Shown: positions 23,708 to 26,138 of the stretch, piece after piece
Layout of the letters: each line of letters starts with the position of its first letter
Numbering within the stretch: the stretch's first letter is position 1
Source of the DNA: a virus
Virus record (IMG/VR): IMGVR_UViG_3300002132_000124
Span: 1 to 26,138 of that record
DNA length: 26,138 nucleotides
Direction: 5' to 3' (one strand)
Notes under the pieces: model-generated
What the model was told of the DNA's origin: nothing
Database searches by the model: none
The model's input: only the letters and a program-made list of their open reading frames with translations
Translations under genes and position numbers: made by a program

Positions 23708-24020
23708 TTCTTAATGCCTTTACTTGTTTGTGTATTTCAACAAACTCTGTTTTTACTTCAAGTAAATTTTGGCTTGCCCTTGCCAAAGTTTTTATTAATT
23801 GTCTTATTGTGTAGATAGTCCAAAACCACCAAGTGGCTGCGGTCATAGCAAATAGACCAATCCCTGTCCAAAATGCTGTTGCAAAACTTATAATGCCTAG
23901 TGCTACTAATCCCATAGCAATAACTAAAAATACCGTGGGAACTAATCTAGCAAATAGATCCCATCTTTCTACTTGCATTTCTATACGTTTGTGATAGGCT
24001 TCTTCTTCTTGTATATTCAT
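23694..24020 (-). CDS. Small two-span membrane protein, unknown function
   Basis: 108 residues. Charged N-terminus (MNIQEEEAYHKRIEMQVERW), two hydrophobic spans at about 27-47 (VPTVFLVIAMGLVALGIISF) and 50-70 (FWTGIGLFAMTAATWWFW), then a helical, charged C-terminal tail of about 35 residues that could be a coiled coil. Both ends would lie on the same side of the membrane. AAGGG lies about 11 bases before the ATG and is partly covered by a hairpin. A late-type box lies at 24057-24064. A lysis-related or membrane-remodelling role is possible but not shown. Confidence 0.7.
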   Translation of the reverse strand: MNIQEEEAYHKRIEMQVERWDLFARLVPTVFLVIAMGLVALGIISFATAFWTGIGLFAMTAATWWFWTIYTIRQLIKTLARASQNLLEVKTEFVEIHKQVKALRNDDK

Positions 24021-24034
24021 AAAATTGTGTTCCC

Positions 24035-24065
24035 TTACACTATTATAGTGTAAAGATATTTACAC
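24035..24065 (-). promoter_or_regulatory. Two overlapping, mutually exclusive hairpins before the membrane-protein pair
   Basis: On the minus strand GTGTAAA (24065 to 24059) can pair with TTTACAC (24054 to 24048) around a 4-base loop. Alternatively TTACACTA (24053 to 24046) pairs with TAGTGTAA (24042 to 24035) around a 3-base loop. The two share the central TTACAC, so only one can form at a time. The second hairpin reaches the AAGGG ribosome site. No T-run follows, so it is not a standard terminator. Confidence 0.6.
24057..24064 (-). promoter_or_regulatory. Late-type box TGTAAATA before the membrane-protein pair
   Basis: Seven of eight matches to TATAAATA, 36 bases before the ATG at 24020, within the first arm of the upstream hairpin. 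The spacing is longer than for most late boxes in this window. Confidence 0.45.
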
Positions 24066-24093
24066 TCATTACTGAGATTATTAAACTCGAGCT

Positions 24094-25200
24094 TTATGAA
24101 CTTATCTGTCCGAAGGGCTTCCATTCGCCTGGGGTGCCTTCTCTAATGCATACCCAACCTACGTATCCTGTTGGTTTAGGACTACTGTTCCAAACAATAT
24201 CACCTAGTGCATATGATCCTGAAGTTGGGTGGCCTGTACCTACTTCAAACTTCTTACCCTGCATACGGATAGGTCCAGCAGTAGTAATGTCAGCGTCACT
24301 TGCAAAGTTTTTAACACCTACACCAATTTTGCCGTTAAACACTGCTTTAGATGCAAATACTACATCTCCACTTGGTTCAATACTAATGCGTTTAGTATCG
24401 TCAGTAACAATGTCTAATCCACTAGTAGTCCAAGTACCAATTTTAAATCGGTAGTCATCAGTTGCATCAATTAAAAATTCGTGGTCTAAACTTGCAATAC
24501 TAAATGCACCGTTTGGCTCACTAATGCCCAACCCTAACCGCATACTATCAGCATCATAGAAGATATGTTCGTCAACAGTTAATGCACCGGCTACTCTTAG
24601 TGAGTCAAGTGTACCTACACGCTGTAGATTACTGTTAACAATTCCTAACCCTATACTGTCTTCGCTTATTACAGTTTGATTGGCAATGCGATATTCCTTA
24701 CCTTTAGAAATATCAATTGTTTCACTACTAAACAATCTGTCCGGACTGCCTTGCATAGTTAGCTGTCTAGTATTTCCAGCACCTGTCCAAATTAATCCTT
24801 TGCTATAGATGTTACCACCTTCTGCTTTGAATTCTAAAGGACCTGTTCTTTCGTTTCTTACATCAGCACTAATCTCATCTACGTGTAATTTAGTTGCAGT
24901 AATCTCACCTTTAACAGTTAAGCTACCTTCAATTGTCAACGGGTTAACAATAGTGTTAACACGCAATACCGTAATAGTAACGCCATCGTTACCAACAAGT
25001 AACGTTGATGCAGTTGCAGTATCTTTAATACCAGTACTTGCAAAGTTAGTAATTACTCCACCGTTAATCTTATTACCTGATAATTGTCTATCAAGTATTT
25101 CAGCTTTTGGTGCAGGCTGTTTAGATATTGCTTCTACTGCTGCACTTACGGCAGCAAAGCCATTTCTCATTTCTATTAGTTTATTTTCCATATCGCTCAT
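24094..25200 (-). CDS. Tail-fibre-like protein
   Basis: 368 residues. N-terminal helix (MENKLIEMRNGFAAVSAAVE), then fibre-shaft sequence with repeated short beta units (VNTIVNPLTIEGSLTVKGEI, NGKIGVGVKN). The C-terminus from about 325 (GHPTSGSYALGDIVWNSSPK, then GYVGWVCIREGTPGEWKPFG) resembles the receptor-facing tips of many phage fibres. It lies apart from the main fibre block, next to membrane and sugar-modifying genes. The start codon lies in the second arm of a perfect 15-bp inverted repeat. AGGGA in the loop is the only ribosome site seen. Confidence 0.8.
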   Translation of the reverse strand: MSDMENKLIEMRNGFAAVSAAVEAISKQPAPKAEILDRQLSGNKINGGVITNFASTGIKDTATASTLLVGNDGVTITVLRVNTIVNPLTIEGSLTVKGEITATKLHVDEISADVRNERTGPLEFKAEGGNIYSKGLIWTGAGNTRQLTMQGSPDRLFSSETIDISKGKEYRIANQTVISEDSIGLGIVNSNLQRVGTLDSLRVAGALTVDEHIFYDADSMRLGLGISEPNGAFSIASLDHEFLIDATDDYRFKIGTWTTSGLDIVTDDTKRISIEPSGDVVFASKAVFNGKIGVGVKNFASDADITTAGPIRMQGKKFEVGTGHPTSGSYALGDIVWNSSPKPTGYVGWVCIREGTPGEWKPFGQISS

Positions 25201-25240
25201 TGTGATAAATCCCTGCTGTTACAGTATTTATCACAATGAG
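25196..25240 (-). promoter_or_regulatory. Perfect 15-bp inverted repeat covering a fibre gene start, with late box in the first arm
   Basis: CTCATTGTGATAAAT (25240 to 25226, minus strand) and its exact complement ATTTATCACAATGAG (25210 to 25196) are separated by 15 bases. The second arm contains the ATG of the fibre gene (25200 to 25198). The first arm contains most of the late box at 25225-25232. RNA reading through from upstream would fold and pair the start codon; RNA begun at the late box lacks the first arm. Confidence 0.8.
25225..25232 (-). promoter_or_regulatory. Late promoter box GATAAATA before the 368-aa fibre gene
   Basis: Seven of eight matches to TATAAATA, 24 bases before the ATG, and the same variant as at 3333 and 6148. 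Confidence 0.65.
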
Positions 25241-25247
25241 TTATAGA

Positions 25248-26138
25248 TTAAGATACCTTTAGTAGGATAGTATCGATGTTAATACGTCCATTCATCCTAG
25301 TATCTACTGCACTAATGTTATCAAGGAATGTACGCAACGCTACTTTGCCAGCTGCTTTGAATGCTTTAAGTTGTTCATCTGGCTTACGCAGTGTCTTTTG
25401 AATACTAAGTTCTTCGTTGTATCCAATAATAGTAGTGCCTTTAACCTGCAAGCCACTTGTGCCACGGCCCATTCCTGTTGGATCAATATTAGTTGCAACA
25501 TACTTGCCCAACTTGCGTGTCTTAACATTAAATGTCCATAGCTCGTTTGCACCCACAACATCTACAGGATTAACACTTGCAAGTTTGTACTTGTCGTCTA
25601 GTTTCAAGAACTTCAACTTAGTAATTAACTTATCTGCACTCTTTGGCTTGGCAATACGCGGCTTGCGTGTAGCTTTTGACGCATCAATAATGTAGTCAAG
25701 TGCTTGCATCAAGTTTTCAATTGCACTTGTGTATTTTGCAATGTCTGCTTTCTTAAGATGTGTGTAACCTTCTTTGAGCTGTGCCCACATATCTGCTTCA
25801 AGCTCAGTCATTTTCTTTAACTGACCGGCAGTAGGCATACGATCTAGTTCTTCAAAGTCTAACAGTTCTTTTTCAAAGAATGTTTTCATCTTACGAGCGT
25901 GTGCTTGTGTAGTACCAGCTTTGCTAAAATGTACTTTAAAGTCAAATCCTTTTGGATCAAAGCCTGGCTTGTCTGTAATAAAGCCTTCTAACCATTCTTC
26001 AATAGGTTCAGCAGTTGCCCACGCTTGATCTGCAATGCGTTCTTGGATAGTAGGAACATATACTTTAGAACTTGCTTTTTCGTCTATTTTTGCTTTAGCA
26101 ACTTCTTTAGCACCGCCTGCGATTGTTTTTTCTAGCAC
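25248..26138 (-). CDS. Unknown protein, N-terminus cut by window edge
   Basis: At least 296 residues; the first codon seen is GTG and the frame is open to the edge, so the true start probably lies outside. The first 150 residues are helical and charged (RIADQAWATAEPIEEWLEGF, then AHARKMKTFFEKELLDFEEL and a long Lys-rich helix region). A C-terminal part of about 120 residues is more beta-like: KYKLASVNPVDVVGANELWT, then TRKLGKY, VKGTTIIGYNEE, KTLRKP and ending GRINIDTILLKVS. I recall similar uncharacterised proteins in marine T4-like phages but no function. It ends 47 bases before the fibre gene start, and its read-through RNA would enter the 15-bp inverted repeat. Confidence 0.75.
   Translation of the reverse strand: MLEKTIAGGAKEVAKAKIDEKASSKVYVPTIQERIADQAWATAEPIEEWLEGFITDKPGFDPKGFDFKVHFSKAGTTQAHARKMKTFFEKELLDFEELDRMPTAGQLKKMTELEADMWAQLKEGYTHLKKADIAKYTSAIENLMQALDYIIDASKATRKPRIAKPKSADKLITKLKFLKLDDKYKLASVNPVDVVGANELWTFNVKTRKLGKYVATNIDPTGMGRGTSGLQVKGTTIIGYNEELSIQKTLRKPDEQLKAFKAAGKVALRTFLDNISAVDTRMNGRINIDTILLKVS

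Follow-up and report, generated by a model that had tools for sequence, protein, structure and literature searches.

A probable late-promoter/hairpin translation gate at the start of a fibre-like gene in an uncultured T4-like phage

Late promoters embedded in hairpins that control translation are known from phage T4 and related phages. In the T4 gates, which include e, soc, 49 and I-TevI, 'SD and/or AUG' are sequestered in the early RNA (PMC3014915). Gene e is a late gene behind an early unit. The hairpin of its early RNA pairs both the Shine-Dalgarno (SD) sequence and the AUG, and late promoters are located in the 5' arm (PMC3014915). Soc and gene 49 are late genes that are present on early transcripts and have a sequestered initiation region (PMC3014915, PMC2988022). 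I-TevI, I-TevII, I-TevIII, segB and Aeh1 mobE possess a late (or middle) promoter whose position prevents its RNA from folding into the inhibitory hairpin (PMC2988022). A locus that resembles these systems in the properties listed is located in a 26-kb fragment from an uncultured T4-like phage (the window, i.e. the entire stretch of DNA analysed).

The gene in question encodes a 368-aa protein with matches to phrog_6002 (virion structural, 6e-11), phrog_2617 (short tail fibre C-terminus, 2e-9) and phrog_23059 (tail fibre, 5e-8). Based on these modest profile matches, the product is probably a fibre-like virion protein. A megablast of the region against annotated phages yielded no matches. The elements of the locus are, in the order of transcription:

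25248 to 26138, minus strand: upstream gene, predicted to be early (open reading frame and match to phrog_11903), with the stop codon at 25250-25248; truncated by the window edge
25226 to 25240, minus strand: 5' arm of the hairpin, CTCATTGTGATAAAT, exclusive to the read-through RNA (sequence, fold)
25225 to 25232, minus strand: putative late promoter box of the T4 type, GATAAATA, with seven of its eight bases within the 5' arm
25218 to 25220, minus strand: predicted late transcription start, about 5-7 nt past the box, placed according to T4 late promoter geometry
25213 to 25224, minus strand: inner 4-bp stem CUGU/GCAG in the loop (fold), which pairs part of the SD in the read-through RNA
25210 to 25215, minus strand: SD-like CAGGGA, read directly from the sequence
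25196 to 25210, minus strand: 3' arm of the hairpin, ATTTATCACAATGAG, containing the ATG at 25200-25198 (sequence, fold)
24094 to 25200, minus strand: presumably gated gene for the 368-aa fibre-like virion protein (open reading frame and PHROG matches)

On the minus (coding) strand, the order is CTCATTGTGATAAAT-ACTGTAACAGCAGGG-ATTTATCACAATGAG, i.e. two perfect 15-mers with 15 nt between them. The initial annotation had described two mismatch-free 15-base arms, one with the fibre ATG and the other overlapped by a late promoter. This description was borne out, with the arms at 25196-25210 and 25226-25240, the ATG at 25200-25198 and the promoter box at 25232-25225. The hairpin is the only perfect stem of at least 10 bp (loop 3-30 nt) in the window, and 6 Mb of composition-matched Markov-1 sequence contained no stem of more than 13 bp. 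An 81-nt segment folds with -27.6 kcal/mol compared to -9.1 +/- 2.4 kcal/mol for shuffled sequences (z = -7.8), and none of 200 shuffles was as good. It is the strongest hairpin of the window and far exceeds chance expectation. The motif ATAAATA occurs eight times in the window. Since all eight matches share the gene strand and lie 17-32 nt 5' of an ATG, they are credible T4-type late promoters. The remaining seven late-type promoters in the window are not associated with a significant hairpin (z between -1.1 and +1.8). The next gene has in its upstream region (window 24000-24070, minus strand) two overlapping, mutually exclusive hairpins, AGTGTAAA..TTTACACT and TTACACT..AGTGTAA, directly followed by an SD-like AAGGGAA. 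Its box is the non-canonical TGTAAATA.

The fibre hairpin is probably a late-promoter/hairpin translation gate. We infer early read-through, a late 5' end and translational silence, which would act together as follows: At an early stage of infection, RNA polymerase would start at the upstream gene's host-type promoter and continue into the fibre gene, and the start codon of this read-through RNA would be buried in the 15-bp hairpin and not translated. Later, RNA polymerase with the phage late sigma factor would initiate about 6 nt past GATAAATA. In T4 late promoters, about one helical turn separates the TATA box from the downstream start (PMC2988020), which places +1 within the hairpin loop at about 25218-25220. 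The late RNA would lack the 5' arm, so that the AUG and its surroundings would be open. Folding of the two RNAs is consistent with this. The initial annotation had suggested that the fold of the read-through RNA be computed; in our models, its AUG is hidden with a probability of being unpaired of at most 0.002 at all upstream lengths tried (30-300 nt). In the late RNA model, this probability is 0.74-0.90 for starts 5-8 nt past the box, and the SD is partly paired with the downstream coding sequence. T4 gene e served as positive control: In the same folding, its SD and AUG are buried and its behaviour matches. Pairing of the start codon 'rather than' the SD had been regarded as a peculiarity of the new locus. 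This is no real difference, since the T4 gates are described as sequestering 'SD and/or AUG' (PMC3014915), T4 e pairs its AUG, too, and the SD is part-paired here.

The case for early read-through comes from the gene neighbourhood and from relatives. DNA ligase, RNase H and phosphoesterase genes, located further upstream, constitute an early-type neighbourhood. Downstream follow the fibre gene, queD, a glycosyltransferase gene and other genes bearing late boxes. The window ends short of the position of the upstream gene's promoter, which is known from complete copies in relatives. Its typical form is TTGAC(A/T)-17-TATA(A/C/G)T, located about 30-45 nt 5' of the ATG. Of 81 relatives whose upstream open reading frame is complete, 64 have a good sigma-70 match, including all nine hairpin representatives; several of those lacking it have reading frames whose internal start looks mis-assigned. 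The closest relatives of the window have a 12/12 consensus, and L002, L006 and L018 carry TTGACA-17-TATAAT 36-40 nt 5' of the ATG. In L212, a single 12/12 match is located at 14862-14834, and no terminator-like site was found on the promoter's strand before the fibre gene. Judged by its sequence context, the upstream gene is of the early type. With a sigma-70 promoter and early-type neighbours upstream and late boxes downstream, an early gene appears to run directly into a late gene. Protection of the fibre gene from early read-through, as originally suggested, is hence supported by the folding of both RNAs, by a near-perfect host-type promoter upstream without a terminator and by the recurrence of differing hairpins (see below). 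In the relative L007, a dense tRNA cluster was seen by eye upstream of the ligase/early gene (L213:10900-13300, a 179-kb contig).

Whether relatives keep the pairing with compensating changes had been posed as a check, and they do so in part. The close relatives L001-L006 (88-100% identity) keep a stem of 13-15 bp, with 13 bp in L006. L007 (63%) keeps 9 bp, TTGATAAAT/ATTTATCAA, in which both sides of one pair have changed. By contrast, the pairing is absent from L008-L012 (53-57% identity), although gene and promoter are present. Compensatory change is scarce inside the window's own family. In the cultured phages PA5oct, phiM12, BUCT-ZZ01, DLP6, OC and Cr30, which have distant homologues of the upstream gene, the junction is absent.

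A broader comparison was anchored on the upstream gene and comprises 89 distinct junctions, 86 of which have a late box at the homologous place and an open start. They fall into three classes. In class (a), a gap separates the stop codon from the box (window/L002/L006, L064/L068, L171/L185, L018, L049, L163). In class (b), the stop codon overlaps the box (TGATAAATA) and the ATG is located 4-5 nt past the box. Class (c) has the same overlap plus a 16-34-nt leader with an SD. The stems of class (a) include a perfect one of 14 bp in L064/L068, 11 bp in L171/L185 and 9 bp in L018. Their arm sequences are mostly unrelated between groups: The L064 arms, GCTCATACATGTAT/ATACATGTATGAGC, have no relation to those of the other groups, and only L049 and L163 are partly alike. 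In all nine class (a) representatives, the pairing partner of the AUG is located 5' of the start site, and the median probability of an unpaired AUG is 0.006 in the read-through RNA vs 0.825 in the late RNA. When upstream halves were swapped among junctions, the class (a) value was 0.32 compared to an observed mean of 0.15, and the fraction of swaps as low was 2e-4. In classes (b) and (c), the AUG is hidden no better than with swapped halves (fractions 0.31 and 0.72); small stems at these overlap junctions were rejected as AUG-hiders on the basis of these fractions. AUG-pairing hairpins with z < -2.5 were found at 9 of 10 class (a) junctions, at 3 of 76 overlap junctions and at 7 of 55 other late starts on the same contigs; two of these seven are class (a) loci missed by the filter. 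All swap and hairpin tests treat the junctions without phylogenetic correction. Over all junctions, the total fold energy is -12.67 for cognate halves and -9.88 +/- 0.29 for swapped ones, and overlap junctions, too, fold somewhat better than swapped ones. Since the control late starts also do so, evidence was restricted to the AUG-specific test. On the tree of the upstream protein, the gap label requires at least five changes, two of them forced by strong branches. Apparently, the AUG-hiding hairpin arose several times at this gene boundary, and the sequences suggest a rule: The hairpin occurs at junctions whose late promoter is free of overlap with the upstream stop codon. Plausibly, translation termination on the promoter would cause the ribosome to melt any hairpin at this place, so that the overlap phages rely on something else.

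Three other explanations have to be weighed. The hairpin might be a terminator or a 3'-end stabilizer of the upstream early gene with an incidental overlap of the start codon. It does adjoin the upstream stop codon, and the gap locus L133 has at this place, after the upstream stop and before the late promoter, an intrinsic terminator (AAAAGCGGACTTAGGTCCGCTTTTT) that replaces the hairpin gate. However, the stem in the window is A+T-rich and not followed by a U run, L212 lacks terminator-like sites on this strand and the stem covers the AUG in every gap group. This makes a terminator very improbable. Translational coupling without a time switch is a second option, in which ribosomes terminating at 25248 would open the stem and re-initiate on the fibre gene. 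The distance from the stop codon to the stem is only about 7 nt, so that a terminating ribosome could melt the outer pairs, and in most relatives the stop overlaps the promoter, with a leaderless-type ATG about 12 nt further. Coupling would, however, predict the opposite of the observed distribution, as hairpins are found at distant stop codons and not at overlapping ones (9/10 vs 3/76), and a dedicated late promoter is located inside the hairpin; we consider coupling very improbable. Two face-to-face late promoters, with a symmetry that belongs to the DNA, are likewise very improbable: The plus strand has GATAAATC in the other arm and true GTGATAAATA pairs exist elsewhere, but the second box lacks the last A, a credible rightward gene is absent, the repeat continues over ATGAG past any promoter and a second box is missing from the hairpins of L064, L018 and L171, which are unrelated in sequence.

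The true pairs are found in L235, L236 and L247, whose perfect inverted repeats consist of two face-to-face GTGATAAATA boxes between divergent genes, with an open ATG near both sides in most copies. They probably represent bidirectional late promoters. A pattern scan of IMG/VR for the window's hairpin yielded its own family, a similar but unrelated start in L227, face-to-face promoters and chance-looking palindromes. A late sigma factor of the gp55 type, as the proposed late-promoter/hairpin gate would employ, is encoded by two relatives, G006 and G010 (phrog_12791, E about 1e-78). G010 (357 kb) combines it with an 11-bp gate, the L174/L171-type hairpin. A gp55-like sigma factor was not detected in the 26-kb window and the other records searched, most of which are probably fragments. 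The search for a gp45 clamp with T4-based models (PF02916, phrog_223) had no matches, and its positive control was silent, too.

In 52 of the 86 junctions, the ATG is located 4-5 nt past the box and has no SD (5 nt, n=47; 4 nt, n=5). Spacers of 6-15 nt between box and ATG do not occur among the 86. If +1 is placed as in T4, the late mRNAs with spacers of 4-5 nt would be leaderless. Loci of this type include L020, L022-L026, L036-L051, L064 and L068; the fibre gene of the window has a leader and does not belong to them. A full-text literature search with partial coverage found nothing on point about leaderless T4-like late genes. In L064, L068 and L163, hairpin and leaderless AUG are combined. 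The gene directly after the fibre gene in L002 (3248-3270) carries a hairpin, CGTCTATAAA-TAC-TTTATGGACG, with TATAAATA inside and the ATG 4 nt past the box. This is possibly another gate, a leaderless one. As a tentative generalization, late genes behind early genes might be usable solely via a late-promoter 5' end, and a single homologous junction might use three interchangeable devices for this purpose: a hairpin that hides the AUG and contains the promoter, a leaderless AUG at +1 that is inert when internal, or a terminator.

Based on sequence and modelled RNA folds, the hairpin at the fibre gene joins the T4-type late-promoter gates e, soc, 49 and I-TevI. The box lies in the 5' arm of the hairpin, the AUG is predicted to be hidden in the read-through RNA and free in the late RNA, and the gene is located behind an early unit without a terminator, as seen in relatives. 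Its likeness to soc and gene 49 is one of arrangement. In contrast to the present locus, T4 gene e has two late promoters and encodes a lysis enzyme (lysozyme) instead of a fibre-like protein. I-TevI, I-TevII, I-TevIII, segB and mobE encode mobile endonucleases, whereas a structural gene of an uncultured phage group is concerned here. New are the gene, the phage group and the rule that ties the hairpin to the separation of stop codon and promoter. With this rule, the reason why phages protect late genes from early read-through can be put to the test. If the leaderless pattern is real, T4-type late transcription commonly yields leaderless mRNAs in these uncultured phages. Judged by the comparison of 86 homologous junctions, a regulatory device previously described for few T4 genes appears to have been lost and re-made with new sequence under the stop-codon rule.
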